Of a stretch of DNA of 64,000 nucleotides, positions 18,056 to 58,495 are shown in pieces (the stretch's first letter is position 1; every line of letters starts with the position of its first letter). The notes under the pieces are model-generated. The model made no database searches, was not told where the DNA came from, and saw only the letters and a list, made by a program, of their open reading frames with translations. This stretch comes from Siphonodentalium dalli (Eukaryota; Mollusca; Scaphopoda; Gadilida; Siphonodentaliidae): assembly GCA_032622095.1 (NCBI GenBank), contig CP136064.1:131633129-131697128 (forward strand), given 5' to 3'. Both the position numbers and the translations under genes were made by a program.

Positions 18056-18093
18056 CACCCACTGAACGCGCTTCGCGCGTTGGTCAGTGGGTG
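18056..18093. repeat. GC-rich hairpin next to the array
   Basis: CACCCACTGA pairs with TCAGTGGGTG, and inside it ACGCGC-TTC-GCGCGT forms a second stem. It lies just before the solitary Helitron terminus that opens the large array, so it is probably the end of another element. Confidence 0.6.
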
Positions 18094-18095
18094 AA

Positions 18096-18145
18096 AAAAT
18101 GTCATGTTTCTGACCAACCACGCCAGTGGCGGGCTAACCTGCTAG
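18096..18145 (+). mobile_element. Solitary family A Helitron 3' terminus
   Basis: Only the last 50 bp remain: AATGTCATGTTTCTGACC, the CGCCAGTGGCG hairpin, then CTAACCTGCTAG. The next unit starts on the following base. Confidence 0.8.
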
Positions 18146-21100
18146 TCTATATATATATTGAGACTTCCGTATATATATATGTATATATGTGTGTATATAT
18201 ATATATGTGGGTACTTCATAGAATCGAAAACGCGTGTACAGATTGAGCTCAAATTTAGTATATAAGTGTAAAATCCCACGGACACCGTCGTGTTCGCGTT
18301 TTGGAGAAGGTCACAGAACATCTTCTCCCTTCCCAATCATCAAAATCACCGCAAACGCCACTTCGGGGGTTAAGGCATCGACGATCTTTATATTGACCAT
18401 ATTCGGAGGTGTTAAGGATTAACGCTCTTTATTGCAATGGACGTGGCTAAACGACTGACCCCATGCGTCCGAAATACGGATGCGCGACGAAATGCAATTA
18501 TCTCGATTAAAAAGGCAGAATTGATATAAGCAGCGTTTGTTTACAATTCAACGCAACGCTATCGCTCGAAATATTATGCAGAGAGATTTCACGACGGGAT
18601 TAATTGACAGTCCGCTCTTTTCGGGGAGACGGGTACCATGAATTAACTCATTGAAAAACAAACAATGCGTTGTCTGTCGTTCCTAGGAAGGGGGGATTTC
18701 CTCGGGTCAATTTTTCCGCCAGAAACAAAAAATTAATTTAAAATTAATTAAAACAATTAAAAATTTATTAATAAAAAAACAACATTAAATTAATATTAAA
18801 AAATAAAAAATTTATTGCATTAATAAAGTTAAACATTTTCTCCCGAGCAAGGCTCTCAAAACATTATACTTCGCCCTAATTCAAAGCCACTTAGTTTATG
18901 GCATCCAAATATGGGGACATGTATCGGCAGTGAAGAAACTATATTTATTACAAAAAACGAGCCATCAGAATTATATGTAACAAAAAATATAGAAGTCACA
19001 CCGATCCTCTTTTCAAACAAGAAAACATTTTAAAAATAGATGATTTACATAAATTACATGCATCCATTTTCATGCATGATTGGTACTACGATCGCTTACC
19101 GGTGTCTTTTTCTGGTATGTATGACAAGAGAGCAGAACAAAATAGACGACAACCTAATCCTATAGTACAAAAAAATTCAGGACCATTTCTAAAGTTCTCC
19201 CATACCATTCATTCCCCTTTATGTGGAATTCCCTAGAAATTAAATATACCTCTAAACAATCAAGACATGTGTTCCGAAAACGTTTGAAAACGGATAACAT
19301 TACTACCTATTCAGCGAAGATGCCCTGGTTGCACAAACGATACATAATTTTCTGATAACAAAATAAACAAAACAATACAAAACAAAATTCACTCTAGTAT
19401 GCATGTTAATTGAAAAAAAAAAGAAGAAAAAAAAAAACAATTCCCAAAACCTCACTCACATTATTCCTACTCGGTTCCACTCACACATGTATATTCATAG
19501 TAATCATTCATTATATCGACCAAGTAGGTACCCATACATACATATGAACCACTTTTCGTACCATCGCCCTAACAACGCCTATATATTAAAAAACCCAGTC
19601 TGCACACAATAAACGTAACCTAAAAACAATCAAGTTAATTCGGCCATCTTCATCATATAATCTGTCACTACATCCAGGGGTGATAGGAAGACAGTCAGCC
19701 ATGACTATATCACCCCTAGCAATATACATGTATAGTCTATTAATATTATATTTATTTGTAATTGTACTTTCCATGTATGTGTATTGTAAATAAAAATTAT
19801 CCTAACGGAAGTGCCGTTTATTAACCCCTAAACTTCCCAGATTCAGCCAGAATTACAAAATTGTGCCCCCAATAAACAAACTCACAGCCCGGACCCCCTT
19901 AAGTCTTTCAACCCGGCAGCGCGCTAAAGCGGACACGACGTAATTTACGTTCATCCCGGCAGTCCGCTTTAGCGGGCAGAGCGCAATTGTCGGGAATAAT
20001 ACAATATTTCCAGAGATTTACAAATGATTTTATTGGTTAGCGACTTGTATATCCTTTGGGTGATATTCGGTATCAATACTAATTTATTGGAGCTCACGAA
20101 TACCTAGCATGTACCCCATTAAGAGAATTTCCGGGCCTAAATATAGACAGCACCTGTATGACGTCACGATTACTATCTTGGGGTTTTTCTAAAAATCGAT
20201 GACGCAATATACTGCCGACAGGTGTGGTGTTTTGAGTCATATTTGATTTTGGTTTATTGTTTGTCACAAACACATACCGATAAGATTATTGTTATTACGT
20301 TTATGAAATAAAGAAGATAATGTTGAACTTTCTAACAATGTTTTATTTGTGGTATCCGTCTAATGTCTTCTATTTTCGACGCAATATTACGGAAATCACC
20401 GTGCCGCTCAACGTCGTGACTTTAATAATAGCTGCACGTGTATATTATAAACATGACATCGACATTCATATTCATTTTGGGAATCCGACCAGGACATTGG
20501 CAGTTGTTTTATTTCTAATGTTACTCATAATTCCTCAACTTACTGACAAGTAAATCTCTGTGTGTCCATAATTGCTAAATGTGGGAGTATATGTCTGTTT
20601 CGGTCAAATGGCATCTCGTATGCGTATTACCTAGGTTAGTACTGGTCTGCACTTGCCTTTGATAAAGCAATTATGTTCAATGAACCGATTGGTAAAACAT
20701 TTAAAACCATGCAGGGTGTCACCACAACAACGATTATACACCACACTTGCAAAGAATGACACATACATGTAGAGTGTATTTGTATTTGTGGAAAACATTG
20801 ATCCGAAATACGGATGCTGGACGAAATGCAATTATCTCGATTAAAAAGGCAGAATTGATCTAAGAAGCGTTTGTTTACAATTCAACGCAACCTTATCGCT
20901 CGAAATATTATGCAGAGATATTTCACGACGGGATTAATTGACTGTCCGCTCTTTTCGGGGACTACGGGGAAGTTTAGGACGGGTACCATGAATTAACTCA
21001 TTGAAAAACAAAGAATGCGTTGTCTGTCGTTCCTAGGAAGGGGGGATTTCATCGGGTCAATTAGAATAAAAATTAAATAAATAGGTCACTTAGAATAAAA

Positions 21101-21281
21101 ATAAAATAAATATAACAAAATTCAAAAAAACATAAATTAAATTTTAAAAACATTAAATTAATATTAAAAAATTCAAAAAAAAAATATATTAAAAAAAATA
21201 TATATATATAAATAATAAAAAAATAATAAAAAAAATGTCATGTTTCTGACGAACCACGCCAGTGGCGGGCTAACCTGCTAG
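18146..21281 (+). mobile_element. Array unit 1: family A Helitron with captured 2-kb segment
   Basis: 5' end TCTATATATATATTGAG; 3' end CGCCAGTGGCG hairpin, CTAACCTG, CTAG at 21,278-21,281. Sequence 18,146-18,809 is family A as far as its A-rich tract. 18,810-20,802 is a copy of 11,041-13,051. From 20,803 (CCGAAATACGGATG) the family A interior starts again and runs to a normal terminus. The second half resembles the 42.6-kb copy (GGGGACTACGGGGAAG) more than the first half, so two A elements contributed. No Rep/helicase gene. Confidence 0.8.
18810..20802 (+). repeat. Copy of 11,041-13,051 carried in a Helitron
   Basis: About 99% identical over 1,993 bp. It spans the last kilobase of LINE-2, the 100-bp piece of 508-bp repeat and 900 bp of the unknown insertion. 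It differs by single bases and a 20-bp deletion (near 19,314), so the 11-kb copy is the likely source, since only there does LINE-2 continue upstream. The LINE hairpin is kept at 19,677-19,716. The two LINE frame remnants it contains are non-functional. Confidence 0.9.
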
Positions 21282-21669
21282 TCTATCTCATATATATTTT
21301 GAAGACCTCTGTCTGTCTGTTTGTCTGTTTGTTTGTCTGTCATTGATACAAATCTACGATTCTCGACCGATCGGGACGAAACATGGTACTTGTGTGTAGT
21401 TTGACCAGGCGGTCGACGTTGTCGTATTGGCGAGCCCGTGCGGCGCCCGCTTCGCGCATGCGCAGACGAGATCTCGGAAACGGGTGGAGCTATCGACTTG
21501 AAATTTGGTATGTGAATGTATCTTGCCCCGGATACGAAGTTTATCGGGTCGCCGAGCCCGTGCGACGCCAGCTTCGCGCATGCGCAGACGAGATCTCGGA
21601 AACGGGTGGAGCTATCGACTTGAAATTTGGTTTTTGAATAGCCCGGACAACGTCGGGCTCATCGGCTAG
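21282..21669 (+). mobile_element. Array unit 2: family B Helitron
   Basis: 5' TCTATCTCATATATATTTTG, a GTCTGTCTGTTT tract, CGACCGATCGGGACGAAAC, then two 122-bp-type modules, and the hairpin AGCCCGGACAACGTCGGGCT, CATCGG, CTAG. 388 bp, non-coding. The antisense open frames across the modules are repeat artefacts. Confidence 0.85.
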
Positions 21670-22040
21670 TCTCATATATATTTTGAAGACCTCTGTCTGT
21701 CTGTTTGTTTGTCTGTCTGTTTGTCATTGATACAAATCTACGATTCTCGACCGATCGGGACGAAACTTGGTACGTGTGTGTAGTTTGACCAGGCGGTCGT
21801 CGTTGTCGTATTGGCGAGCCCGTGCGGCGCCCGCTTCGCGCATGCGTAGACGAGATCTCGGAAACGGGTGGAGCTATCGACTTGAAATTTGCTATGTGAA
21901 TGTATCTTGCCCCGGATACGAATTTTATCGGGTCGCCGAGCCCGTGCGACGCCAGCTTCGCGCATGCGCAGACGAGATCTCGGAAACGACTTGAAATTTG
22001 GTTTTTGAATAGCCCGGACAACGTCGGGCTCATCGGCTAG
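21670..22040 (+). mobile_element. Array unit 3: family B Helitron
   Basis: 5' TCTCATATATATTTTGAAG directly after the preceding CTAG; 371 bp. The last module has lost GGGTGGAGCTATC. Normal family B hairpin and CTAG (22,037-22,040). Confidence 0.85.
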
Positions 22041-22423
22041 TCTCCTATATATTTTGAAGACCTCTGTCTGTCTGTATGTCTGTATGTCTGTATGTCATTT
22101 ATACAAATCTACGATTCTCGACCGATCGGGACGAAACTTGGTACGTGTGTGTAGTTTGACCAGGCGGTCGTCGTTGTCGTATTGGCGAGGCCGTGCGGAG
22201 CCCGCTTCGCGCATGCGCAGACGAGATCTCGGAAACGGGTGGAGCTATCGACTTGAAATTTGCTATGTGAATGTATCTTGCCCCGGATACGAATTTTATC
22301 GGGTCGCCGAGCCCGTGCGATGCCAGCTTCGCGCATGCGCAGACGAGATCTCGGAAACGGGTGGAGCTATCTACTTGAATTTTTTTTTTGAATAGCCCGG
22401 ACAACGTCGGGCTCATCGCCTAG
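22041..22423 (+). mobile_element. Array unit 4: family B Helitron
   Basis: 5' TCTCCTATATATTTTGAAG; a GTCTGTATG tract instead of GTTTG; a T-run before the hairpin; CATCGC then CTAG. 383 bp. Confidence 0.85.
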
Positions 22424-23473
22424 TCTATACTATATATTTTGAGACTTCGTATATATGTGTGTGTGTGTGTGTGTACTTCATAGAATCCAAAACGCGTGTA
22501 CATATTGAGCTCAAACTTCCTATGTAAGTGTCAAATCCCACCGACACGACCGTGGTCGCGGTTTAGAGAAGCTCAGAGCACCCGTTCTCCAATCTCAAAT
22601 CACCGCAAAGGCACGGCGTGGGTTAATCAAGTGATTATTTAATGAGCGTTTGTTTTTGACGCATCTCTATAAAGAGCGTCTGTTTCCCATTCAACGTTAT
22701 TGGCATCTGCAGAGTTATACGGGAACGCAAACGTTATCGCTCGAAATTTATTCCCTGCGAGCACGGATGGCGCGCTTTGTTTTTACAGTATATACCTTTG
22801 GTATATACCGAAATCATCCCAGATAATCACGAATATAGCATCAGATTTCTCCCCAGATATACCGTTATAAAGCTACTGGAATCTGCCAATCTACTATTAA
22901 TATATGTGTATATTTGTGGGTACTTCATAGAATCGAAAACGCGTGTAGGAACGGGCATCCCCACGGCAATGTCGGCAAATATATATGAGTGTGTCCTTTA
23001 TAGACTCGAACCGATTGAGCTCAAACTTGCTAAATATTTACTGGGAAATTCCAGGCAATGCCGATTGAGCTCAAACTTGCTACCTACGGGAAGTGTCATA
23101 TATATGTGTGTGTCCTTTATAGACTCGAACCGATTGAGCTCAAACTTGCTAAATACGGGAAGTGTCATGGACGGGTTCATTGAAGAAAAAAAAAAATTGG
23201 GTAAAATTGAAAAACAAAATTAAAAAGGCACAATTAACACCTAGAAAAACCAAAAAAAATCGGGTAAAATTTAAAAACAAAAGCACAATTAACTCATTGA
23301 AAAACAAAATAATTAACTCATTGAAAAACAAAAAATTAAATTAAAATTGTCATGTTTCTGACTATTGCCGAAATTTGCTGCAAATGCAGCACAAGTGTCT
23401 CGGAACCTGTTGCAATTGCTTTTTCGAACAAAGCCATGGGACGAATGCCGCCAGTGGCGGGCTAACCTGCTAG
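22424..23473 (+). mobile_element. Array unit 5: family A Helitron, subtype III
   Basis: 5' TCTATACTATATATTTTGAG; 3' hairpin CCGCCAGTGGCGG, then CTAACCTG, CTAG. The interior has a CCGATTGAGCTCAAACTTGC phrase repeated three times and a TATACC-TTTG-GTATATA hairpin. It shares CCTGCGAGCACGGATGGCGC with unit 16. Confidence 0.85.
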
Positions 23474-24295
23474 TACTATATATTTTGAGAACTCCGTATA
23501 TATATGTGTGTATATGTGTACTTTATAAAATCGAAAAAGGCTGGTCGGATCGAGCTCAAATTTCGTATATAAGTGTAAAAACCCACGGACACCGTAGTTG
23601 TCGTGTTTTGAAGAAGCTCAGAGCCCCCGTTCTCCAATCTCAGTCACAAAAAAACGGTACTGCGGTGGTTAATCAAGTGATAATTTAATGAGCGTTTGTT
23701 TTTGACGCATCGCTATAAAGAGCGTGTGTTTACCATTCAACGTTATTAGCATCTGCAGAGAGATATACGGGAACAATACTTTTGAGTGGTTTCCTATGCG
23801 GGGAGATTTATTGGATGCCATAGTACTCTTACAACATCATTGTTATAGTATGTATGACACTTAGGTCAGGGCTTAGGGTGGGGGGGGGGGGGGTGGTAGT
23901 TAGTGTGGATATAGGCATAATGCTTCTCAGAAATCCCGGTTACAAACCAACACTCACAATTTCGTCTTTTGCATCAGATACCAACACCTCGACCGATCGG
24001 GACGAAACTTGGTACGTGAGTGTAGTTTGACCAGGTGGTCGTCGTTGTCGTATTGGCGAGCCCGTGCGACGCCCGTGCGGCGCATGCGCAGACGAGATCT
24101 CGGAAACGGGTGGAGCTATCGACTTGAAATTTGGTATGTGAATGTATCTTGCCCCAGATACGAATTTTATCGGGTCGCCGAGTCCGTGCGACGCCAGCTT
24201 CGCGCATGCGCAGACCAGATCTCGGAAACGGGTGGAGCTATCGACTTGAAATTTGGTTTTTGAATAGCCCGGACAACGTCGGGCTCATCGGCTAG
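23474..24295 (+). mobile_element. Array unit 6: A/B chimera ending in the B terminus
   Basis: 5' half is family A (TACTATATATTTTGAG, then GGCTGGTCGGATCGAGCTC). After a poly-G tract at about 23,880 it joins family B at CTCGACCGATCGGGACG, contains two modules and ends in the B hairpin and CTAG. The same join occurs in unit 18. Confidence 0.85.
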
Positions 24296-24871
24296 TCTAT
24301 CTCATATATATTTTGAAGACCTCTGTCTGTTTGTATGTTTGTCTGTATGTATGTTTGTCATTTATACAAATCTACGATTCTCGACCGATCGGGACGAAAC
24401 TTGGTACGTGTGTGTAGTTTGACCAGGCGGTGGACGTTGTCGTATTGGCGAGCCCGTGCGGCGCCCGATTCGCGCATGCGCAGACGAGATCTCGGAAACG
24501 GGTGGAGCTATCGACTTGAAATTTGGTATGTGAATGTATCTTGCCCCGGATACGAATTTTATCGGATTGCCGAGTCCGTGCGACGCCAGCTTCGCGCATG
24601 CGCAGACGAGATCTCGGAAACGGGTGGAGCTATCGACTTGAAATTTGCTATGTGAATGTATCTTGCCCCGGATACGAATTTTATCGGGTCGCCGAGCCCG
24701 TGCGACGCCAGCTTCGCGCATGCGCAGACCAGATCTCGGAAACGGGTGGAGCTACCGACATGAAATTTGGTTTTTGAATAGCCCGGACAACGTCGGGCTC
24801 ATCGGCTACTTGAAATTTGGTTTTGAATAGCCCGGATGAATAGCCCGGACAACGTCGGGCTCATCGGCTAG
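24296..24871 (+). mobile_element. Array unit 7: family B with doubled 3' end
   Basis: 576 bp with three modules. The first terminus reads CATCGG-CTAC (24,806-24,809) instead of CTAG. It is followed by a second, then a third partial copy of the terminal segment, the last ending in CTAG. Confidence 0.85.
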
Positions 24872-25422
24872 TCTCATATATATTTTGAAGACCTCTGTCT
24901 GTATGTATGTTTGTTTGTTTGTTTGTTTGTTTGTCATTAATACAAATCTACGATTCTCGACCGATCGGGACGAAACTTGGTACGTGTGTGTAGTTCGACC
25001 AGGCGGTGGACGTTGTCGTATCGGCGAGCCCGTGCGGCGCCCGCTTCGCGCATGCGCAGACGAGATCTCGGGAACGGGTGGAGCTATCGACTTGAAATTT
25101 GCTATGTGAATGTATCTTGCGCCGGGTACAAATTGTATCGGGTCGCCGAGCCCGTGCGACGCCAGCTTCGCGCATGCGCAGACCAGATCTCGGAAACGGG
25201 TGGAGCTATCGACTTGAAATTTGGGGTGTGAATGTATCTTGCCCCGGATACGAATTTTATCGGGTCGCCGAGCCCGTGCGACGCCAGCTTCGCGCATGCG
25301 CAGACGAGATCTCGGAAACGGGTGGAGCTATCGACTTGAAATTTGGTATGTGAATGTATCTTGCCCCGGATACGAATTTTATCGGGTCGAATAGCCCGGA
25401 CAACGTCGGGCTCATCGGCTAG
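24872..25422 (+). mobile_element. Array unit 8: family B Helitron
   Basis: 5' TCTCATATATATTTTGAAG; (GTTT)n tract; about three and a half modules; the last module is cut and joined straight to AATAGCCCGG of the terminal hairpin. 551 bp. Confidence 0.85.
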
Positions 25423-26588
25423 TCTATCTATACTATATATTTTGAGACTTCGTATATATGTGTGTATATGTGTGTGTGTGTACTTCATAGAATCCAAAAC
25501 GCGTGTACAGATTGAGATCAAATTTCGTATGTAAGTGTAAAATCCCACCGACACCGCCGTAATCGTGTTTTCGAGAAGCTCTGAGCACCCTTTATCCACT
25601 CCCAGTCATCGAAATCAGCTCAAACGGCACGGTCGGGGTTAATAACGTCATTATATATATATATGAAGTCAGAGTCTCCAAAGTTATACCGGAACAAACA
25701 CGTGTTTACGTCGTCTTGGGGGTCCACGATGGGAGTCTGACTTCAATGCAATGTTATCGCTCGAAACACGTGTTTACTTCGTGTTGAGGTTCACGATGGG
25801 AGTCTGACAATTGTTATCGCTCGAAATAGTACATTAGGACGGGAACGGCTGGACAGATTGAGCTCAAACTTCCTATCTAAAGGTAAAATAACACGTACGA
25901 TGTCGTCCACGCGTTTTCCAGAAGCTCCGAGCACCCGTACTCCACTCCCAGTCATAAAAATCAGCTCAAACGGCACGGTCGGGGTTAATAACGTCATTAT
26001 ATATATATATACGAAGTCAACGTTATTAGCATCTGCATTGAGTGCATTTCCTAGAACGCAACACGTGTTTTACGTCGTCTTGAGGTTCACGATGGGAGTC
26101 ATTTCAATGCAATGTTATCGCTCGAAACACGTGTTTACTTCGTGTTGAGGTTCACGATGGGAGTCTGACATTTCAATGCAATGTTATCGCTCGAAATATT
26201 ATGCAGAAAGGCAGATCTCGGAAACGGGTGGAGCTATCGACCTGAAATTTGCTATGTGAATGTATCTTGCACCGGGTACAAATTTTATCGGGTCGCCGAG
26301 TCCATGCGACGCCCGTGCAGCGCATGCGCAGACGAGATCTCGGAAACGGGTGGAGCTATCGACTTGAAATTTGCTATGTGAATGTATCTTGCGCCGGGTA
26401 CAAATTTTATCGGGTCGCCGAGTCCGTGCGACGCCAGCTTCGCGCATGCGCAGACCAGATCTCGGAAACGGGTGGAGCTACCGGGTACAAATTTTTCTTA
26501 TTGAAACGCGTGGAGCTAAAAATTAAAAACAAATATTAAAAAAATGTCATGTTTCGGACAAGCCGCCGGTGGCGGGCTAACCTGCTAG
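25423..26588 (+). mobile_element. Array unit 9: family A Helitron, subtype II
   Basis: Starts TCTATC then TATACTATATATTTTGAG. The interior has the duplicated box with AACACGTGTTTAC, TTCACGATGGGAGTCTGAC and GTTATCGCTCGAAA, then two family B modules, then the A 3' end (CCGCCGGTGGCGG, CTAACCTG, CTAG). Nearly identical to unit 10. Confidence 0.85.
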
Positions 26589-27776
26589 TACTATATATTT
26601 TGAGACTTCGTATATATATGTGTGTGTATATATGTGTGTACTTCATAGAATCCAAAACGCGTGTACAGATTGAGATCAAATTTCGTATGTAAGTGTAAAA
26701 TCCCACCGACACCACCGTAATCGTGTTTTCGAGAAGCTCTGAGCACCCTTTATCCACTCCCAGTCATCGAAATCAGCTCAAACGGCACGGACGGGGTTAA
26801 TAACGTCATTATATATATATATGAAGTCAGAGTCTCCAAAGTTATACCAGAACAAACACGTGTTTACGTCGTCTTGGGGGTCCACGATGGGAGTCTGACT
26901 TCAATGCAATGTTATCGCTCGAAACACGTGTTTACTTCGTGTTGAGGTTCACGATGGGAGTCTGACAATTGTTATCGCTCGAAATAGTACATTAGGACGG
27001 GAACGGCTGGACAGATTGAGCTCAAACTTCCTATCTAAAGGTAAAATAACACGTACGATGTCGTCCACGCGTTTTCCAGAAGCTCCGAGCACCCGTACTC
27101 CACTCCCAGTCATAAAAATCAGCTCAAACGGCACGGCCGGGGTTAATAACGTCATTATATATATATATACGAAGTCAACGTTATTAGCATCTGCATTGAG
27201 TGCATTTCCTAGAACGCAACACGTGTTTTACGTCGTCTTGAGGTTCACGATGGGAGTCATTTCAATGCAATGTTATCGCTCGAAACACGTGTTTACTTCG
27301 TGTTGAGGTTCACGATGGGAGTCTGACATTTCAATGCAATGTTATCGCTCGAAATATTATGCAGAAAGGCAGATCTCGGAAACGGGTGGAGCTATCGACC
27401 TGAAATTTGCTATGTGAATGTATCTTGCACCGGGTACAAATTTTATCGGGTCGCCGAGCCCATGCGACGCCCGTGCAGCGCATGCGCAGACGAGATCTCG
27501 GAAACGGGTGGAGCTATCGACTTGAAATTTGCTATGTGAATGTATCTTGGTCCGGGTACAAATTTGATCGGGTCGCCGAGCCCGTGCGACGCCAGCTTCG
27601 CGCATGCGCAGACCAGATCTCGGAAACGGGTGGAGCTACCGGGTACAATTTTTTCTTATTGAAACGCGTGGAGCTAAAAATAAAAAAAAAATATAAACAA
27701 ATGTCACAATTAACTCATTGAAAAACAAAAAATGTCATGTTTCGGACAAGCCGCCGGTGGCGGGCTACCCTGCTAG
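26589..27776 (+). mobile_element. Array unit 10: family A Helitron, subtype II
   Basis: Near-duplicate of unit 9 (offset about 1,158 bp); 5' end is the short form TACTATATATTTTGAG. Terminus CTACCCTG then CTAG (27,773-27,776). Confidence 0.85.
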
Positions 27777-28919
27777 TCTCTATCTATCTATACTATATAT
27801 TTTGAGACTTCCGTGTGTGTGTACTTCATAGAATCCAAAACGCGTGTACAGATTGAGATCAAATTTCCTATGTAAGTGTCAAATCCCACCGACACGAAAG
27901 TGGTCGCGGTTTAGAAAAGCTCAGAGCACCCGTTCTCCACTCCCATTCATCAAAATCAGCTCAAACGGCACGGCCGGGGTTAATAACGTCATTATATATA
28001 TATATGAAGTCAGAGTCTCCAGAGTTATACCGGAACAAACACGTGTTTACGTCGTCTTGGGGGTCCACGATGGGAGTCTGACTTCAATGCAATGTTATCG
28101 CTCGAAACACGTGTTTACTTCGTGTTGAGGTTCACGATGGGAGTCTGACAATTGTTATCGCTCGAAATAGTACAACGGCTGGACAGATTGAGCTCAAACT
28201 TCCCATCTAGAGGTAAAATACCACGTACGATGTCGTCCACGCGTTTTCCAGAAGCTCCGAGCACCCGTACTCCACTCCCAGTCATTAAAATCAGCTCAAA
28301 CGGCACGGCCGGGGTTAATAACGTCATTATATATATATATGAAGTCAGAGTCTCCAGAGTTATACGGGAACAAACACGTGTTTACGTCGTCTTGGGGGTC
28401 CACGATGGGAGTCTGACTTCAATGCAATGTTATCGCTCGAAACACGTGTTTACTTCGTGTTGAGGTTCACGATGGGAGTCTGACAATTGTTATCGCTCGA
28501 AATAGTACATTAGGACGGGTACGAAATGCATTTATCTCGATTAAAAAGGCAGATCTCGGAAACGGGTGGAGCTATCGACTTGAAAATTGCAATGTGAATG
28601 TATCTTGCGCCGGGTACAAATTTTATCGGGTCGCCGAGCCCATGCGACGCCCGTGCAGCGCATGCGCAGACGAGATATCGGAAACGGGTGGAGCTATCGA
28701 CTTGAAATTTGCTATGTGAATGTATCTTGGGCCGGGTACAAATTTGATCGGGTCGCCGAGTCCGTGCGAAGCCAGCTTCGCGCATGCGCAGACCAGATCT
28801 CGGAAACGGGTGGAGCTACCGGGTACAATTTTTTCTTATTGAAACGCGTGGAGCTAAAAATAAAAAAAATATATAAACAATGTTTCGGACAAGCCGCCGG
28901 TGGCGGGCTAACCTGCTAG
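27777..28919 (+). mobile_element. Array unit 11: family A Helitron, subtype IIa
   Basis: The 5' end has extra TCTC/TATC tetramers before TATACTATATATTTTGAG. Interior: two AACACGTG boxes and two modules. Units 13, 14 and 17 are almost the same sequence. Hairpin CCGCCGGTGGCGG, CTAG. Confidence 0.85.
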
Positions 28920-29547
28920 TCTCATATATATTTTGATGACCTCTGTTTGTTTGTGTGTCTGTATGTTTGTCTGTCATTGATACAAATCTACGATTCTCGA
29001 CCGATCGGGACGAAACTTGGTACGTGCGTGTAGTTTGACCAGGCGGTGGACGTTGTCGTATTGGCGAGCCCGTGCGGCGCCCGCTTCGCGCATGCGCAGA
29101 CGAGATCTCGGAAACGGGTGGAGCTATCGACTTGAAATTTGCTATGTGAATGTATCTTGCCCCGGATACGAATTTTATCGGGTCGCCGAGCCCGTGCGAC
29201 GCCAGCTTCGCGCATGCGCAGACGAGATCTCGGAAACGGGTGGAGCTATCGACTTGAAATTTGGTACGTGAATGTATCTTGCCCCGGATACGAATTTTAT
29301 CGGGTCGCCGAGCACGTGCGACGCCAGCTTCGCGCATGCGCAGACCAGATCTCGGAAACGGGTGGAGCTATCGACTTGAAATTTGCTATGTGAATGTATC
29401 TTGCCCCGGATACGAATTTTATCGGGTCGCCGAGCCCGTGCGACGCCAGCTTCGCGCATGCGCAGACCAGATATCGGAAACGGGTAGAGCTATCGACTTG
29501 AAATTTGGTTTTTGAATAGCCCGGACAACGTCGGGCTCATCGGCTAG
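28920..29547 (+). mobile_element. Array unit 12: family B Helitron, four modules
   Basis: 5' TCTCATATATATTTTGATG; the 122-bp module repeats at exact 122-bp steps (for example 29,017, 29,139, 29,261). B hairpin and CTAG (29,544-29,547). It separates two nearly identical subtype IIa units. Confidence 0.85.
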
Positions 29548-30676
29548 TACTATATATTTTGAGACTTCCGTGTGTGTGTACTTCATAGAATCCAAAACGC
29601 GTGTACAGATTGAGATCAAATTTCCTATGTAAGTGTCAAATCCCACCGACACGAAAGTGGTCGCGGTTTAGAAAAGCTCAGAGCACCCGTTCTCCACTCC
29701 CATTCATCAAAATCAGCTCAAACGGCACGGCCGGGGTTAATAACGTCATTATATATATATATGAAGTCAGAGTCTCCAGAGTTATACCGGAACAAACACG
29801 TGTTTACGTCGTCTTGGGGGTCCACGATGGGAGTCTGACTTCAATGCAATGTTATCGCTCGAAACACGTGTTTACTTCGTGTTGAGGTTCACGATGGGAG
29901 TCTGACAATTGTTATCGCTCGAAATAGTACAACGGCTGGACAGATTGAGCTCAAACTTCCCATCTAGAGGTAAAATACCACGTACGATGTCGTCCACGCG
30001 TTTTCCAGAAGCTCCGAGCACCCGTACTCCACTCCCAGTCATTAAAATCAGCTCAAACGGCACGGCCGGGGTTAATAACGTCATTATATATATATATGAA
30101 GTCAGAGTCTCCAGAGTTATACGGGAACAAACACGTGTTTACGTCGTCTTGGGGGTCCACGATGGGAGTCTGACTTCAATGCAATGTTATCGCTCGAAAC
30201 ACGTGTTTACTTCGTGTTGAGGTTCACGATGGGAGTCTGACAATTGTTATCGCTCGAAATAGTACATTAGGACGGGTACGAAATGCATTTATCTCGATTA
30301 AAAAGGCAGATCTCGGAAACGGGTGGAGCTATCGACTTGAAAATTGCAATGTGAATGTATCTTGCGCCGGGTACAAATTTTATCGGGTCGCCGAGCCCAT
30401 GCGACGCCCGTGCAGCGCATGCACAGACGAGATATCGGAAACGGGTGGAGCTATCGACTTGAAATTTGCTATGTGAATGTATCTTGGGCCGGGTACAAAT
30501 TTGATCGGGTCGCCGAGTCCGTGCGAAGCCAGCTTCGCGCATGCGCAGACCAGATCTCGGAAACGGGTGGAGCTACCGGGTACAATTTTTTCTTATTGAA
30601 ACGCGTGGAGCTAAAAATTAAAAAAATATATAAACAATGTTTCGGACAAGCCGCCGGTGGCGGGCTAACCTGCTAG
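29548..30676 (+). mobile_element. Array unit 13: family A Helitron, subtype IIa
   Basis: 5' TACTATATATTTTGAGAC, short GTGTGTGT tract; otherwise like unit 11. CTAG 30,673-30,676. Confidence 0.85.
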
Positions 30677-31809
30677 TCTATACTATATATTTTGAGACTT
30701 CCGTGTGTGTGTACTTCATAGAATCCAAAACGCGTGTACAGATTGAGATCAAATTTCCTATGTAAGTGTCAAATCCCACCGACACGAAAGTGGTCGCGGT
30801 TTAGAAAAGCTCAGAGCACCCGTTCTCCACTCCCATTCATCAAAATCAGCTCAAACGGCACGGCCGGGGTTAATAACGTCATTATATATATATATGAAGT
30901 CAGAGTCTCCAGAGTTATACCGGAACAAACACGTGTTTACGTCGTCTTGGGGGTCCACGATGGGAGTCTGACTTCAATGCAATGTTATCGCTCGAAACAC
31001 GTGTTTACTTCGTGTTGAGGTTCACGATGGGAGTCTGACAATTGTTATCGCTCGAAATAGTACAACGGCTGGACAGATTGAGCTCAAACTTCCCATCTAG
31101 AGGTAAAATACCACGTACGATGTCGTCCACGCGTTTTCCAGAAGCTCCGAGCACCCGTACTCCACTCCCAGTCATTAAAATCAGCTCAAACGGCACGGCC
31201 GGGGTTAATAACGTCATTATATATATATATGAAGTCAGAGTCTCCAGAGTTATACGGGAACAAACACGTGTTTACGTCGTCTTGGGGGTCCACGATGGGA
31301 GTCTGACTTCAATGCAATGTTATCGCTCGAAACACGTGTTTACTTCGTGTTGAGGTTCACGATGGGAGTCTGACAATTGTTATCGCTCGAAATAGTACAT
31401 TAGGACGGGAACGAAATGCATTTATCTCGATTAAAAAGGCAGATCTCGGAAACGGGTGGAGCTATCGACTTGAAAATTGCAATGTGAATGTATCTTGCGC
31501 CGGGTACAAATTTTATCGGGTCGCCGAGCCCATGCGACGCCCGTGCAGCGCATGCACAGACGAGATATCGGAAACGGGTGGAGCTATCGACTTGAAATTT
31601 GCTATGTGAATGTATCTTGGGCCGGGTACAAATTTGATCGGGTCGCCGAGTCCGTGCGAAGCCAGCTTCGCGCATGCGCAGACCAGATCTCGGAAACGGG
31701 TGGAGCTACCGGGTACAATTTTTTCTTATTGAAACGCGTGGAGCTAAAAATTAAAAAAATATATAAACAATGTTTCGGACAAGCCGCCGGTGGCGGGCTA
31801 ACCTGCTAG
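30677..31809 (+). mobile_element. Array unit 14: family A Helitron, subtype IIa
   Basis: Almost identical to unit 13 over its full length, with the long 5' form TCTATACTATATATTTTGAG. It contains an intact empty site for the nested family C insertion of unit 17 (ATTATATATATATA followed by TGAAGTC). Confidence 0.85.
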
Positions 31810-32827
31810 TCTATACTATATATTTTGAGACTTCGTATATATGTGTGTGTGTGTGTACTTCATAGAATCCAAAACGCGTGTACAGATTGAGATCAAATTT
31901 CGTATGTAAGTGTAAAATCCCACCGACACCGCCGTAATCGTGTTTTCGAGAAGCTCTGAGCACCCTTTATCCACTCCCAGTCATCGAAATCAGCTCAAAC
32001 GGCACGGCCGGGGTTAATAACGTCATTATATATATATATGAAGTCAGAGTCTCCAAAGTTATACCGGAACAAACACGTGTTTACGTCGTCTTGGGGGTCC
32101 ACGATGGGAGTCTGACTTCAATGCAATGTTATCGCTCGAAACACGTGTTTACTTCGTGTTGAGGTTCACGATGGGAGTCTGACAATTGTTATCGCTCGAA
32201 ATAGTACATTAGGACGGGAACGGCTGGACAGATTGAGCTCAAACTTCCTATCTAAAGGTAAAATACCACGTACGATGTCGTCCACGCGTTTTCCAGAAGC
32301 TCAGAGCACCCGTACTCCACTCCCAGTCATAAAAATCAGCTCAAACGGCACTTCCGGGGTTAATAACGTCATTATATATATATATACGAAGTCAACGTTA
32401 TTAGCATCTGCATTGAGTGCATTTCCTAGAACGCAACACGTGTTTTACGTCGTCTTGAGGTTCACGATGGGAGTCATTTCAATCGAAACACGTGTTTACT
32501 TCGTGTTGAGGTTCACGATGGGAGTCTGACATTTCAATGCAATGTTATCGCTCGAAATATTATGCAGAAAGGCAGATCTCGGAAACGGGTGGAGCTATCG
32601 ACCTGAAATTTGCTATGTGAATGTATCTTGCGCCGGGTACAAATTTTATCGGGTCGCCGAGTCCGTGCGACGCCAGCTTCGCGCATGCGCAGACCAGATC
32701 TCGGAAACGGGTGGAGCTACCGGGTACAAATTTTTCTTATTGAAACGCGTGGAGCTAAAAATTAAAAACAAATATTTAAAAAATGTCATGTTTCGGACAA
32801 GCCGCCGGTGGCGGGCTAACCTGCTAG
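31810..32827 (+). mobile_element. Array unit 15: family A Helitron, subtype II
   Basis: Like units 9 and 10 but with one module and a deletion between ATTTCAATC and GAAACACGTG. 3' CCGCCGGTGGCGG, CTAG. Confidence 0.85.
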
Positions 32828-33946
32828 TACTATATATTTTGAGACTTCGTATATATGTGTGTGTGTGTGTGTACTTCATAGAATCCAAAATGCGTGTACA
32901 GATTGAGCTCAAACTTCCTATGTAAGTGTCAAATCTCACCGACACGACCGTGGTCGCGGTTTAGAGAAGCTCAGAGCACCCGTTCTCCAATCTCAAATCA
33001 CCGCAAAGGCACGGCGTGGGTTAATCAAGTGATTATTTAATGAGCGTTTGTTTTTGACGCATCTCTATAAAGAGCGTCTGTTTGCCATTCAACGTTATTT
33101 GCATCTGCAGAGAGATAAACGGAACATACATTAAATTTAAAAAACATTTGTTTCTGACCAACCCTGCGAGCACGGATGGCGCGCTTTGTTTTTACAGTAT
33201 ATAGTTATATACCGAAATCATCCCAGATAATCACGAATATAGCATCAGATTTCTCCCCAGATATACCGTTATAAAGCTACTGGAATCTGCCAATCTACGG
33301 GAAATTCCAGGGAATGCCGATTGAGCTTAAACTTGCTACCCACGGGAAGTGTCATATAATATTATATGAGTGTGTCCTTTATAGACTCGAACCGATTGAG
33401 CTCAAACTTGCTAAATAAGAAAATAGCCCCCAAGCCGTAAATATCAACAACAACGATATTACTAAATACACGTTTTCGGCAATGTGAGAGTTTTCGAGTA
33501 GCCGTGATGCCAACAACAACGACCCGAAGCCCTGAATGCCAACAACAGATTCAATGCAATGTTATCTATTATGCAGAGAGATTTCACGACATTACGACGG
33601 GTACGGCAGACTCAAAATATTATGCAGACAGATTTCCCGACGGGAAGCGTTTGTTTTAAATTCAATGCAATGTTATCGTAGAGAGATTTCACGAAACAAA
33701 GAATGCGTTGTCTGTCGTTCCTAGGAAGGGGGGATTTCTACGGGTAAATTTTTCCGCCAGAAACAAAAAAATTAATTAAAACAATTTAATTAAAACAATT
33801 TAAAATTAAAAAAAATTAACAATAAAAAAACAATTCAGAAACAAAATATATTAAATTTAAAAAACATTAAATTCATATTCAAAAATGTCATGTTTCTGAA
33901 ACAAAGCCATGGGACGAATGCCGCCAGTGGCGGGCTAACCTGCTAG
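32828..33946 (+). mobile_element. Array unit 16: family A Helitron, subtype III
   Basis: 5' TACTATATATTTTGAGAC; shares most of its interior with unit 5, then has a stretch with CCGTGATGCCAACAACAAC words (also seen at 37.4-37.6 kb), the TAGGAAGG box, an A-rich tract and the A terminus. Confidence 0.85.
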
Positions 33947-34970
33947 TCTATACTATATATTTTGAGACTTCCGTGTGTGTGTACTTCATAGAATCCAAAA
34001 CGCGTGTACAGATTGAGATCAAATTTCCTATGTAAGTGTCAAATCCCACCGACACGAAAGTGGTCGCGGTTTAGAAAAGCTCAGAGCACCCGTTCTCCAC
34101 TCCCATTCATCAAAATCAGCTCAAACGGCACGGCCGGGGTTAATAACGTCATTATATATATATACTAGAAGGTGACCCGACTTCGTCCGGGCTATTCAAA
34201 AACCAAATTTCAAGTCGATTGCTCCACCCGTTTCCTAGATCTGGTCTGCGCATGCGCGAAGCTGGTGTCGCACGTGCTCGGCGACCCGATAAAATTCGTA
34301 TCCGGGGCAAGATACATTCACATACCAAATTTAAAGTCAATATCTCAACCCGTTTGCGAGATCTCGTCTGCGCATGCGCGAAGCTGGCGTCGCACGTGCT
34401 CGGCGACCCGATAAAATTTGTATCCGGGGCAAGATACATTCACATACCAAATTTCAAGTCGATAGCTACACCCGTTTCCGAGATATATAGCCCAATGTCA
34501 TTTGCGGATACCTCGGCCGGTGATGAGTTAACGCGACACAGTCAAATGCATCGGCAGGGTGAGAGTTAACGTAATCTAACTTTATGACCTCTGACGACGT
34601 CATAGAAATTACGCATTGATTTTATCCCGATAAAAGCATTGTACCACTTGTACCTAATAATTGAGGCAGATAACTAAAACGGATACATACATATTATATA
34701 TCGTTGGAAAGATGAAGCCACACAGATTCTAACCGTGCAAATTATATGACTGGCAATTTATTATTCGCGCTATATCGAATCGATTTGTGAGCACCGAACT
34801 GAAATATATTAGCGCAAAAACGGCGTAAAAATAGATTTGACCTCCGCACGTGAAAAGTTGACCTCGCACGGACAAATAAATATGCCTATGTTCGTCTCCG
34901 GCCGAAAACACATCCAAATACCAAATTTCATCGAAATTGGCTTAGTCGTTTTCGAGTCCATCGATTTCAA

Positions 34971-35001
<31 letters not shown>

Positions 35002-35951
35002 AACACATACACAGATCTTTCAAAATATATAATAGATGAAGTCAGAGTCTCCAGAGTTATACCGGAACAAACACGTGTTTACGTCGTCTTGGGGGTCCAC
35101 GATGGGAGTCTGACTTCAATGCAATGTTATCGCTCGAAACACGTGTTTACTTCGTGTTGAGGTTCACGATGGGAGTCTGACAATTGTTATCGCTCGAAAT
35201 AGTACAACGGCTGGACAGATTGAGCTCAAACTTCCCATCTAGAGGTAAAATACCACGTACGATGTCGTCCACGCGTTTTCCAGAAGCTCCGAGCACCCGT
35301 ACTCCACTCCCAGTCATTAAAATCAGCTCAAACGGCACGGCCGGGGTTAATAACGTCATTATATATATATATGAAGTCAGAGTCTCCAGAGTTATACGGG
35401 AACAAACACGTGTTTACGTCGTCTTGGGGGTCCACGATGGGAGTCTGACTTCAATGCAATGTTATCGCTCGAAACACGTGTTTACTTCGTGTTGAGGTTC
35501 ACGATGGGAGTCTGACAATTGTTATCGCTCGAAATAGTACATTAGGACGGGTACGAAATGCATTTATCTCGATTAAAAAGGCAGATCTCGGAAACGGGTG
35601 GAGCTATCGACTTGAAAATTGCAATGTGAATGTATCTTGCGCCGGGTACAAATTTTATCGGGTCGCCGAGCCCATGCGACGCCCGTGCAGCGCATGCGCA
35701 GACGAGATATCGGAAACGGGTGGAGCTATCGACTTGAAATTTGCTATGTGAATGTATCTTGGGCCGGGTACAAATTTGATCGGGTCGCCGAGTCCGTGCG
35801 AAGCCAGCTTCGCGCATGCGCAGACCAGATCTCGGAAACGGGTGGAGCTACCGGGTACAATTTTTTCTTATTGAAACGCGTGGAGCTAAAAATAAAAAAA
35901 ATATATAAACAATGTTTCGGACAAGCCGCCGGTGGCGGGCTAACCTGCTAG
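33947..35951 (+). mobile_element. Array unit 17: family A subtype IIa with nested family C
   Basis: Without the 872-bp insertion at 34,165-35,036 it is about 1,133 bp, the length of unit 14, and the two halves join exactly. A terminus CTAG at 35,948-35,951. Confidence 0.9.
34165..35036 (-). mobile_element. Nested family C Helitron, reverse orientation
   Basis: On the minus strand: TCTATTATATATTTTGAAAG, a GT-rich tract, GATGGACTCGAAAACGAC, a middle part matching 62.64-62.77 kb, two to three 122-bp-type modules and the hairpin CCCGGACGAAGTCGGG, TCACCTT, CTAG. It sits between A and T of ATATATA|TGAAG with no duplicated or lost base relative to units 11-14. 872 bp, non-coding. Confidence 0.92.
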
Positions 35952-36894
35952 TACTATATATTTTGAGAACTCCGTATATATATGTGTGTATATGTGTACT
36001 TCATAGAATCGAAAAAGGCTGGTCGGATCGAGCTCAAATTTCGTATATAAGTTTAAAAACCCACGGACACCGTAGTTGTCGTGTTTTCAGAGCCCCCGTT
36101 CTCCAATCTCAGTCACAAAAAACGGTACTGCGGTGGTTAATCAAGTGATAATTTAATGAGCGTTTGTTTTTGACGCATCTCTATAAAGAGCGTGTGTTTA
36201 CCATTCAACGTTATTAGCATCTGCAGAGAGATATACGGGAACAATACTTTTGAGTGGTTTCCTATGCGGGGAGATTTATTGGATGCCATAGTACTCTTAC
36301 AATATGTATGACACTTAGGTCAGGGCTTAGGGGGGGGGGGTAGTTAGTGTGGATATAGGCATAATGCTTCTCAGAAATCCCGGTTACAAACCAACACTCA
36401 CAATTTCGTCTTTTGCATCAGATACCAACACCTCGACCGATCGGGACGAAACTTGGTACGTGAGTGTAGTTTGACCAGGTGGTCGTCCTTGTCGTATTGG
36501 CGAGCCCGTGCGACGCCCGTGTGGCGCATGCGCAGACGAGATCTCGGAAACGGGTGGAGCTATCGACTTGAAATTTGGTATGTGAATGTATCTTGCCCCG
36601 GATACGAATTGTATCGGGTCGCCGAGCCCGTGCGACGCCAGCTTCGCGCATGCGCAGACCATATATCGGAAACGGGTGGAGCTATCGACTTGAAATTTGG
36701 TTTTAGAATAGCCCGGACAACGTCGGGCTCAACAATTTTTCATCGGGTCAGTTCTTTCCGCCCGATGTACCTTAAATCTTTTAGGGACGGGTACCATAAT
36801 TTCTCTTGATTAAAAGGGCACAATTAACTCGTTGAAAAGCCAAAAAAATGTCATGTTTCTGATGAACGCCGCCAGTGGCGGGCTAACATGCTAG
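35952..36894 (+). mobile_element. Array unit 18: A/B/A chimera
   Basis: The first 760 bp follow unit 6 (A head joined to B modules). The B hairpin is present (36,710-36,729) but is followed by CAACAA instead of CATCGG-CTAG. The sequence then runs into a family A tail and ends at the A hairpin and CTAG (36,891-36,894). Confidence 0.85.
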
Positions 36895-37740
36895 TCTACT
36901 ATATATTTTGAGAACTCCGTATATATATGTGTGTATATGGCAGGTCGGATCGAGCTCAAATTTCGTATATAAGTGTAAAAACACACAGGATCGTCAACGT
37001 CGCACTTTGGACAAGCTCTGAGCACTCCTTGATCCTTAAAGTGCGACCTTCGTTTGGATACAATGGGTTTCGCTATCGATTCGCTCGCGACCCAAGAGGC
37101 GTAACTCGACATTTTTTATATCTATATGTATATTTTTATATCAATATTCACTTCAAACTGCTAAACCCGTTGAGCCAAAACTTGCTAATACCTCGCAAAA
37201 TATAGAATTTACATTTTCTGATATATTCATTTTTTGTTACGGCTGAAAATCTTAGTCTATTTCCGATACATTCATATTTTAAAACTATAAACTTACACCC
37301 CTCAATTCGTGCTAACTCACGCAGCTTATCTGGCTGCTGAAAGTTCAGTAAATACGAGGCATTGTGATACGTCCCCGAATCTGACGGGACTTCCACTGCC
37401 TTGTCCCTTGACCATCTCGTAAAGGTGGGGTCACCCCCAAGCCGTGAATGCCAACAACAACAACATTTTTGGCGAGAAAATAATTATTAAAAATTACTAA
37501 ATCCACACAATGCTATTTTCTCTTTACGGCAATGTGAGAATCTTCGGGTGGCCCCCAAGCCGTGAATGCCAACAACAACAACATTGTTGGCATACCTCTT
37601 TTAGGGACGGGTATCATAATTCCTCTTGATTAAAAAGACAGAATTAACTCATTGGAAAACAAAAAATGCGTGTTGTGTGATTCTTATGTCTGTCGTTCCT
37701 ATGAACGGGGAATTTTTCATCGGGTCAGTTTTTTCCGCAA
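36895..37740 (+). mobile_element. Array unit 19: family A 5' end, no 3' end
   Basis: Starts TCTACTATATATTTTGAG and follows family A to about 36,980. It then carries sequence not seen elsewhere, GTGAATGCCAACAACAAC repeats (about 37,443 and 37,563), and a family A stretch (TTAGGGACGGGTA, CTATGAACGGGG). It fades near 37,740 without hairpin or CTAG. Confidence 0.65.
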
Positions 37741-40882: not shown

Positions 40883-40990
40883 GGTCTTACTTGCTCGTTT
40901 TATTTTATTAAAAAGTTTACAAAATTCTTTGTATTCTGTTACATTAGATACATTGAGATGACTATGTATAGATGATGCATTTATCTAAAT

Positions 40991-41560: not shown

Positions 41561-42621
41561 AAAAACAGTCATTCATGCCAAATTACATGCTTTGCGTCAC
41601 AATAAACTGAACGATTCTGTTACTACTGTTGACACATACTTATATATATAAGAATGATGTGTAAGTTAGTGTAACTCACCGAATTGATCATAAGTGGTGT
41701 AAAATCAACATAATGCATATTTTGTAGTGTTTACTTTGTTATTTTCACGAATCCTTCCAAATAATAGTCATAGTATTTCCCGTACAGAACCGATTAAATT
41801 GGGAGAGAACCGACTCGATCGAGATATATCACAATTTGAGGTGTTCGTCGTTGTTATGACTCGCAAAATGGGATTTTCATTTTGTTTACATTATTTGGGA
41901 CAACAGATTATTAGGGGAATGGAAACATTAATCGCAATCTAGATTGCTCAAAAATTTCGTTTTAACTGTCAAGAACTCTGGAAAAACACAGGGGCCTGTA
42001 ACGCGCTCCGCTGTCCGCCCCCCTTTTGCGCTGCCCATATACGCCGCTGCTATATACGCGCCTGCTTCACGCTAATGGTATAATAATAGCACAAGGGTAA
42101 CTGTAGAAATTCACCTTTTTACCATCACTCGCCGATCGATCAAATATAGATCATTCACACCAGTAATGCCACAGATATAACCACGGATGTATCGGCGAAG
42201 AATTCATCTTTCAATCAATACCACAAACTCCCATCAAAACCATTCATATACATAGCATTTGATAATTTTTTAACCACCGAATATTGTCTCCGAAGACCGT
42301 AAATTTTCATTTTGATCCGGCTCAGAACAAAATGTCCGAAATCTTCCTATAACTTCACCCCCGCGCGGCTCACTATAATTAAAAATCGGCCAAACGATCA
42401 ACTAAACGTTTAGCGCTCAGTGATTTCTTGTCGGCTAATAATTTATTTACTCATACAAATCAACAGATCGTCAGTAAACAATTTCTATAGAGGAGAAATC
42501 TGTCGATAATTGCAACTTTAAAAAAAAAATTGGTCAAGTCACAAAGTTCCTATAGCCAATACAGCCAATCACCGCTCAGTGTTTGAATCGAGGTCAGGTC
42601 ATAATGAATATTAAAATGATC
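41561..42621. other. No recognisable feature
   Basis: Spacer with a GC-richer patch near 42,000. A 71-codon frame at 41,727 has no recognised motif. Confidence 0.4.
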
Positions 42622-43094
42622 TTTATTGCAATCGACGTGGCTAAACGACTAGCCCCATGCGTCCGAAATGCAATTATCTCGATTAAAAAGGCAGAATTGA
42701 TATAAGAAGCGTTTGTTTACAATTCAACGCAACCTTATCGCTCGAAATATTATGCAGAGAGATTTCACGACGGGATTAATTGACTGTCCGCTCTTTTCGG
42801 GGACTACGGGGAAGTTTAGGACGGGTACCATGAATTAACTCATTGAAAAACAAAGAATGCGTTGTCTGTCGTTCTTAGGAAGGGGGGATTTCATCGGGTC
42901 AATTAGAATAAAAATTAAATAAATATAAAAAAAATTCAAAAAAACATAAATTAAATTTAAAAAACATTAAATTAATATTAAAAAAAATATAAAATTATAT
43001 ATTAAAATTAAAAAAAATATATAAATAATTGTTTTTTTTTTTTTTAAATGTCATGTTTCTGACCAACCACGCCAGTGGCGGGCTAACCTGCTAG
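42622..43094 (+). mobile_element. Second array, unit 1: family A Helitron, 5' truncated
   Basis: Begins at CTTTATTGCAATCGACGTGG, the same internal point where the 13.6-kb fragment begins. It continues through the TATCGCTCGAAATATTATGC box and ends with the CGCCAGTGGCG hairpin and CTAG (43,091-43,094). Confidence 0.85.
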
Positions 43095-43908
43095 TCTACT
43101 ATATATTTTGAGACTTCCGTATATATGTGTGTATATATGTGTGTATATATGTGGGTACTTCATAGAATCGAAAACGCGTGTACAGATTGAGCTCAAATTT
43201 CGTATATAAGTGTAAAATCCACGGACACCGTCGTGTTCGCGTTTTGGAGAAGCTTAGAGCACCTCTTCTCCATTCCCAATCATCAAAATCACCGCAAACG
43301 CAACTTCGGTGGTTAAGGCATCAACGATCTTTATATTGACCATATTCGGAGGTGTTAAGGATTAACGCTCTTTATTGCAATGGACGTGGCTAAACGAATG
43401 ACCCCATGCGTCCGAAATACGGATGCGCGACGAAATGCAATTATCTCGATTAAAAAGGCAGAATTGATCTAATCAGCGTTTGTTTACAATTCAACGCAAC
43501 GCTATCGCTCGAAATATTATGCAGAGAGAGTTCACGACGGGACAAACAATGCGTTGTATGTCGTTCCTATAGGAAGGGGGGATTTCATCGGGTCAATTCG
43601 GGGACTAATCTAGGAACGGGGATGTTTAGGACGGGTACCATGAATTATCTCATTGAAAAACAAACAATGCGTTGTCTGTCGTTCCTAGGAAGGGGGGATT
43701 TCATTGGGTCAATTTTTCCGCCAGAAACAAAAAATTCATTTAAAAAATTAATTAAAACAATTTAAAATTAAAAACATTTAAAAATAATTAATTAAATTTT
43801 AAAAAACATTAAATTAATATTAAAAAATTCCAAAAAAATAAAAACAAAATAATTTAAAAAAATGTCATGTTTCTGACCAACCACGCCAGTGGCGGGCTAA
43901 CCTGCTAG
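43095..43908 (+). mobile_element. Second array, unit 2: full-length family A Helitron
   Basis: A good reference copy of subtype I, 814 bp: TCTACTATATATTTTGAGAC, CGCGTGTACAGATTGAGCTC, CCGAAATACGGATG, TATCGCTCGAAATATTATGC, TAGGAAGGGGGGATTTCAT, A-rich tract, AATGTCATGTTTCTGACC, hairpin, CTAG. Non-coding. Confidence 0.9.
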
Positions 43909-44719
43909 TCTCCTATATATTTTGAGAACTACGTATATATATAAATATATGTGTCCTCTATAGAATCTAAAACGGCTGGCTCGATTGAGCTCAAACTTCC
44001 CATCTAATGGTAAAATCCCACGGGAATCGTCTTCGCGGCGTTTTGGAGAAGCCCTGAGTACTCATTCTCCACTCTCAGTCATCAAAATCACCGTCCTCGG
44101 CACTGCGGGGGTTAAGGCAATCACGCTCTTTATATTGATCAAATTTGGCGTTGTTAACCGAGTAACGCTCTTTATTGCCATCGGCGTTGCTAAACGGTCA
44201 CCCTATGCGTACGAATGCGTACGCACCGGAACCGGAATGCATTTATCTTGATTAAAAAGGCAGAATTAACTCATTGGAAAACAACAAATGCGTGTCGTGT
44301 GATTCTTATGTCTGTCGTTCCTATGAACGGGGGAGATTTTCATCGAAACATACATCTTTTAGGGACGGGTACCATAATTTCTCTTGATTAAAAAGGCAGA
44401 ATTAACTCATTGAAAAACAAAAAATGCGTGTTGTGTGATTCTTATGTCTGTCGTTCTTAGGGAGGGGGGAGAATTTCATCGGGTTAGTTTTTCCGCCCTA
44501 GGGACGGGTACCATCATTTCTCTTGACCTTAAAAATGATAAATTCAAGGTCAAATCGGGTCAAATTAAAAAACAAAAAATTAAATTGAAAAATTAAAAAT
44601 TAAAATTAACTCATTGAAAAACAAAAAAAATCGGGTAAAATTGAAAACAAAAAATTAAATTAATGAAAAACAAAAATATGTTTCTGACAATTGCCGCCAG
44701 TGGCGGGCTAACCTGCTAG
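43909..44719 (+). mobile_element. Second array, unit 3: diverged family A Helitron
   Basis: 5' TCTCCTATATATTTTGAG; 811 bp; interior related to unit 2 but clearly diverged, with the ATTAACTCATTG box repeated. 3' hairpin CCGCCAGTGGCGG, CTAG (44,716-44,719). Confidence 0.85.
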
Positions 44720-58443: not shown

Positions 58444-58495
58444 TTATTATACTATTTCACCGTCATGATCAAGTAATATTATCGGGTATAGGGTT

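Follow-up and report, generated by a model that had tools for sequence, protein, structure and literature searches.

The 64,000-nucleotide stretch of Siphonodentalium dalli DNA analyzed here (the window; contig CP136064.1, positions 131,633,129 to 131,697,128) contains an array of Helitron-like transposable elements. Eighteen units (U01 to U18), each 371 to 3136 bp long, fill positions 18146-36894 in a single orientation. They are delimited by 19 ends of the form hairpin plus CTAG, from 18142 to 36894, and at all 19 array junctions the 5' terminus of the next unit directly abuts the 3' end. The array is flanked on both sides by a partial unit (U00 on the left, U19 on the right). The initial annotation had counted 18 units in this interval; exactly 18 are delimited, and the family order that it gave agrees with the units seen. 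Our analysis is confined to a single locus in a single assembly, that is, to the 64-kb window. In the list of features that follows, an extra TCTA at a 5' junction is treated as an opening bracket and a missing TCTA as a closing bracket, and partners are those given by bracket order.

18094..18145, + strand: U00, partial; A-type 3' end (hairpin and CTAG), upstream 5' end not recognizable, left edge set by eye
18146..21281, + strand: U01, A-type; includes about 2 kb (18809-20802) also present at 11040-13051
21282..21669, + strand: U02, family B; 5' junction with extra TCTA (bracket opens; partner U06)
21670..22040, + strand: U03, family B
22041..22423, + strand: U04, family B; starts TCTCC
22424..23473, + strand: U05, family A
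23474..24295, + strand: U06, composite with A-type 5' end and B-type 3' end; 5' end without TCTA (bracket closes)
24296..24871, + strand: U07, family B; extra TCTA (bracket opens; partner U18)
24872..25422, + strand: U08, family B
25423..26588, + strand: U09, family A; extra TCTA (bracket opens; partner U10)
26589..27776, + strand: U10, family A; without TCTA (bracket closes)
27777..28919, + strand: U11, family A; 10 extra bases, TCTCTATCTA (two brackets open; partners U13 and U16)
28920..29547, + strand: U12, family B
29548..30676, + strand: U13, family A; without TCTA (bracket closes)
30677..31809, + strand: U14, family A; carries the empty site of the C element of U17
31810..32827, + strand: U15, family A
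32828..33946, + strand: U16, family A; without TCTA (bracket closes)
33947..35951, + strand: U17, family A, split by the C element
34165..35036, - strand: C-family element, 872 bp, TC...CTAG, inside U17
35952..36894, + strand: U18, A/B/A composite; without TCTA (bracket closes); inner B-type 3' end without CTAG
36895..37681, + strand: U19, partial; A-type 5' end, final A-like match ends at 37681, 3' end not intact, end approximate
about 42620..45319, + strand: second short array, composed of a left-truncated A unit (left edge set by eye), A units at 43095-43908 and 43909-44719, and a C unit at 44720-45319 followed by T

Two families, A and B, are interleaved along the array. Family B comprises six of the 18 units (U02, U03, U04, U07, U08, and U12), and the remaining 12 have an A-type 5' end and belong to several subfamilies, the labels of which are our own. 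Simple satellite DNA, with one monomer and a near-constant period, was rejected on the basis of these interleaved families and unequal unit lengths. Thus, the view that the array is Helitron-like and of mixed family, rather than a plain satellite, is supported by the unit ends, the empty site of the C element, the junctions, and the interleaving. Just upstream of the first 3' end of the array, at 18056-18093, a long inverted repeat (CACCCACTGA ... TCAGTGGGTG) was noticed by eye.

The pattern CTAGT-N(0-16)-TATATATTTTGA, a 3' end followed by the 5' core, was matched 20 times in the window, whereas 100 dinucleotide-shuffled sequences gave 0.00 matches on average. Eighteen of these matches are at array junctions (21278-36891) and two are in the second array (43091 and 43905). 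At junction 18142 the core has a one-letter variant; thus, the exact core is present at 18 of the 19 array junctions. The 5' core by itself was found 22 times in the window, where 0.08 occurrences were expected. Outside both arrays, an exact core at 61618-61633 is preceded by TCTA and G, and no similar sequence was recognized by eye beyond it.

The same junctions were approached from the other side by searching both strands for 3' ends, with up to 6 mismatches in 23 positions for type A and up to 8 in 28 for type B. This search identified 24 ends (15 A and 9 B), 22 of which have CTAG, and every one of these 22 abuts a 5' terminus: the exact core in 20 cases, the variant core in one (18142), and a C-type end in one (44716). 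In the last case, CTAG runs into ACTATTATATA, and the C-type start at 44720 reads ACTATT. Neither of the two ends that lack CTAG abuts a 5' terminus; one has CTAC (24806-24809), and the other, at 36712, has no such tetranucleotide after the hairpin. In U07 (24782-24871), the first 3' end, with CTAC, is bypassed, and a further copy, which has CTAG, terminates the unit. A near-exact pattern retrieved three C-type 3' ends; T comes after each of them, and none abuts a 5' terminus; therefore, stacking is not universal at the Helitron-like 3' ends of the window.

The ends of the units are largely those of canonical Helitrons. The 5' TC is present at 14 of the 19 array junctions and at the start of the C element, and at all 19 of them the 3' CTRR takes the form of CTAG after a palindrome of type A or B. 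When six 3' ends were folded as DNA, they formed stems of 4 to 10 pairs, none of which clearly exceeded shuffled sequences (z from -1.84 to 0.02). The C element in U17 has an empty site in the near-identical U14, from which it is seen that insertion took place exactly at A|T, with no duplication, gain, or loss. A lone C-family element at 62481-63074 also has CTAG followed by T, but the base preceding its 5' TC is C and not A. The left ends of families A, B, and C can be aligned across their first part. Helentrons (Helitron2) have a 3' end other than CTRR and a T|T target; this assignment was rejected, as the ends here read CTAG and the sole empty site is A|T. No matches to Rfam were obtained at gathering scores. 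The junction pattern was also found in at least 120 stretches of viral contigs, which we take to be chance AT-rich matches. A blastn comparison of the units with those loci (dust on, E 1e-3) returned no matches; among the viral stretches listed, 3 of 120 have a stem of 6 or 7 before CTAG (L059, L080, and L092).

The initial annotation held that the units are joined without a spare base. Indeed, CTAG ends run straight into 5' ends throughout, but extra bases are present at four of the 19 junctions, and five are short of TCTA. These five, located after 23470, 26585, 29544, 32824, and 35948, start with TAC, which is the A end TCTATAC minus TCTA. The extra bases are found at four of the 14 junctions with TC, namely TCTA after 21278, 24292, and 25419, and TCTCTATCTA after 27773. 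All five shortened starts begin at one and the same A|T, TCTA|TAC. These gains and losses of TCTA, which go beyond what was remarked on initially, point to a mechanism, and we explain the five TAC starts by insertion into the 5' end. Slippage of a TCTA microsatellite may be another source of the differences, but each of the five losses stops at the only A|T that the A-type terminus contains. The junctions also bear on the possibility that an assembler joined repeats from separate places. Several near-identical units of 1.1 kb, with no reads at hand, might invite such an error, but different families interleave and the joins coincide with element ends at 19 of 19 junctions; thus, we find an artefact hardly credible.

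We propose, with a probability of about 0.62, that the array consists of non-autonomous Helitrons that accumulated by serial single insertions, in the same orientation, at A|T on the 5' edge of an element already present. In its site, such a resident would read A|TC..., and its own first T would maintain the A|T target; a newcomer arriving there would have its CTAG directly against the TC of the resident. A units offer a second A|T four bases in (TCTA|TAC), and insertion at this position would place TCTA on the left side of the newcomer and shorten the start of the resident to TAC. The A of the A|TC edge would be either a host base or the last base of a displaced TCTA. The array would have grown toward its 5' side, with nesting, and the transposase would have acted from elsewhere; the insertion order and the assignment of each TCTA to a unit would follow this scheme. 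A target of this kind, consisting of a host A and the T of the 5' TC, was proposed for a second Helitron in maize in the available passages of a 2008 paper (PMC2267711). Those passages also discuss an option raised for maize in which newcomers arrive on the 3' side, at the G|T formed by CTAG and a flanking T. Insertion there also yields zero-gap junctions, but its target would be non-canonical, and neither TAC starts nor extra TCTA would follow from it alone; we regard this option as very improbable.

By our own count of ends, terminal A|T sites make up about 0.25% of the oriented AT sites in the window. Random insertion would therefore not stack elements, and any insertion model needs a preference for element ends. 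According to the parts of the work on Helraiser available to us, its transposase cuts the single-stranded left end, the top strand being cleaved between flank and 5' TC and the bottom strand at an internal AT (PMC4778049), and Helraiser circles join TC to CTAG and insert at AT (PMC4778049, PMC5876387). The nick made by a transposase at the left end of a resident could double as the target for an incoming circle. If so, this would account for the common orientation, the zero gap, the 5'-ward growth, and the participation of families that share the left end. A more general idea, which we put forward tentatively and with the odds somewhat against it, is that the left end serves as a self-made landing pad: the mobilizing nick would capture circles of any family with that end, in one orientation, and arrays would grow 5'-ward with nesting, keep a ledger of insertions, and generate composites such as U06 and U18.

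When the extra and missing TCTA are read as opening and closing brackets, they balance over the 17 inner junctions. The pairs U02-U06, U09-U10, U11-U13, U11-U16, and U07-U18 are derived from bracket order and not observed. A bracket-like balance of gains and losses is what would be expected if newcomers insert at A|T, at or four bases inside the resident 5' end; coming from one array, it is only suggestive in favor of newcomer insertion at or near resident 5' ends. In a peel test that granted U16 one ad hoc 5' variant, the array could be reduced to one unit by using A|T targets only. The test is weak because surplus TCTA goes unpunished.

Relatedness among the units bears on two other origins. 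In one, the CTAG stop was missed or a CTAG|TC circle was copied repeatedly, and the resulting rolling-circle multimer integrated in one step. On the one hand, such a concatemer yields CTAG|TC junctions directly; Helraiser makes CTAG|TC circles, and tandem Helitrons are taken as support for rolling-circle transposition in the excerpts available from PMC4778049 and PMC5876387. The runs of B units and the pair U13 and U14, alike at 1125 of 1126 positions, fit it locally. On the other hand, families and subfamilies interleave, and the closest relative, ranked by identity times coverage within family, is adjacent for only 2 of the 18 units. In addition, neither the five junctions without TC nor the four with extra bases are expected of a TC-joined circle. 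We therefore consider one-step integration unlikely. The junctions of U13 and U14 differ by exactly TCTA, an example of how units alike in body can have a full or a short start.

In the other origin, which we judge equally unlikely, unequal crossing-over or gene conversion enlarged a short founding array, and the TCTA differences are scars of slippage or repair. Near-identical units do recur (U11, U13, U14, and U17; U09, U10, and U15), neighbors of the same subfamily are mildly enriched, and the flanks of some near-identical pairs are similar. However, B-B is the sole ordered neighbor pair that recurs under our labels. U11 and U17, about 5 kb apart, are identical over 1126 of 1126 aligned bp, but their 5' junction strings differ, and their neighbors on either side belong to other subfamilies. 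Slippage would also be unlikely to halt five times out of five at the only A|T of the terminus. U06 and U18, a further pair with 98.5% similarity across 785 bp, differ in how they finish: a B-type end terminates U06, but U18, in which the inner B-type end lacks CTAG, continues to an A-type end, which suggests that 3' ends are used alternatively.

Several observations weigh against serial insertion. A|T insertion is demonstrated for family C only, because no solo copy or empty site of A or B was seen in the window. A Pfam scan that covered 7 of the 44 frames of at least 110 amino acids revealed no transposase (reverse transcriptase in 2, nothing in 5). The closest relatives of U02 and U10 are near-ties with a neighbor (0.974 versus 0.973 and 0.988 versus 0.989, respectively), and same-subfamily neighbors number 6, where 2.95 are expected (P 0.05, under our labels). 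Flanks, except those of U17, were compared to see whether similarity breaks off where the elements do, but in several of the 15 pairs the flanks are similar too: 0.99 upstream and 0.92 downstream for U10/U15, 0.94 and 0.92 for U13/U14, and 0.97 and 0.92 for U03/U07. This comparison is not clean, partly because neighbors have A or B ends in common; nevertheless, alike pairs with alike flanks, such as U10/U15 and U13/U14, keep local amplification an option, and parts of the array may have arisen in this way. The bracket balance has a P of 0.17 when the 17 inner junctions are permuted, 0.49 when families are kept in place, and 0.05 with independent draws. Without the ad hoc variant the array cannot be peeled (0 of 2000 shuffles can be peeled either). 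Once the U16 variant is allowed, peeling also succeeds for 1172 of 3000 within-family shuffles and after 328 of 500 single changes. Both peel tests omit U00 and assume that a host A, a base that cannot be observed, borders the array on the left.

Other features of the window include a stretch of about 2 kb in U01 (18809-20802) that is 98.3% alike over 2014 bp to positions 11040-13051; a reverse transcriptase frame (RVT_1 at 10073-10657) lies upstream of the latter copy. The repeated segment could thus belong to the 3' portion of a long interspersed nuclear element. Downstream of the array, an open frame of 689 codons on the minus strand (38915-40984) matches the reverse transcriptase domain RVT_1 with E 6e-40. 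Two arrays of 16-bp repeats (58492-58615 and 59423-59521) are in inverted orientation, with arms of up to 97 nt that are 90 to 95% complementary and 0.8 to 0.9 kb apart; together they look like a foldback-type element. A tandem repeat of 41 bp with 3.7 copies is present at 2126-2278, and its core appears self-complementary by eye.

The initial annotation knew of no description of this exact arrangement. In part this does not hold: as far as the accessible passages go, tandem Helitrons are mentioned in several genomes (PMC5148889) and in plant centromeres (PMC12628747), and both head-to-tail CTAG|TC Helitrons in Myotis and a pair of unlike Helitrons in maize have been published, the latter attributed to consecutive insertion (PMC2267711). 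The maize pair resembles our array in its zero-gap CTAG|TC junction between unlike elements; however, it consists of two units, and the passages seen mention neither a second A|T in the terminus nor a chain of displaced 5' pieces. In Myotis lucifugus (Pritham and Feschotte, via PMC2267711) the head-to-tail junctions are perfect, as here, but the elements are described as tandem repeats, whereas families are mixed in our array. Plant arrays (Xiong et al. 2016, as relayed in parts of PMC12628747 and PMC5148889) are likewise tandem, with several to several hundred repeats. However, their units are described as truncated, many of them having several 5' ends for a single 3' end, and are attributed to rolling-circle amplification, whereas in our array both a 3' end and a 5' core are present in 18 of 18 units.

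Excerpts of PMC5148889 also list tandem insertions in bat, Drosophila, rice, and maize, a FoHeli4 copy inserted 2 bp upstream of the 5' end of another, and three tandem Helitron copies in the fungus Metarhizium acridum. For the last, the mechanism was left open between repeated insertion at the 5' end and rolling-circle replication, alternatives that are relevant here. Drosophila dimers formed by double insertion (McGurk and Barbash, via passages of PMC12628747) illustrate that site preference builds tandems, as we propose, although they are described as dimers, unlike the long mixed Helitron array. Maize Helitrons with several ends, derived from nested ones according to the portion seen of PMC3288121, are comparable to U06 and U18. 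Searches of open-licence literature, which leaves out most subscription journals, listed no long mixed-family Helitron array. As far as that literature can tell, the kind of arrangement is known, and its length, family mixture, and junction ledger are new.

To judge from the available text of PMC2267711, PMC5148889, PMC5876387, and PMC12628747, tandem Helitrons have so far been interpreted either as rolling-circle products or as the outcome of consecutive insertions. Unlike units with displaced 5' pieces at their junctions could separate the two by sequence alone. Such an array could also reveal in which order and direction insertions took place, and how composite elements arise in mixed arrays. 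It also provides a way for dispersed transposons to give rise to satellite-like DNA, and if landing at the 5' edge is true, the array would be a readable record of how such stacks grow.

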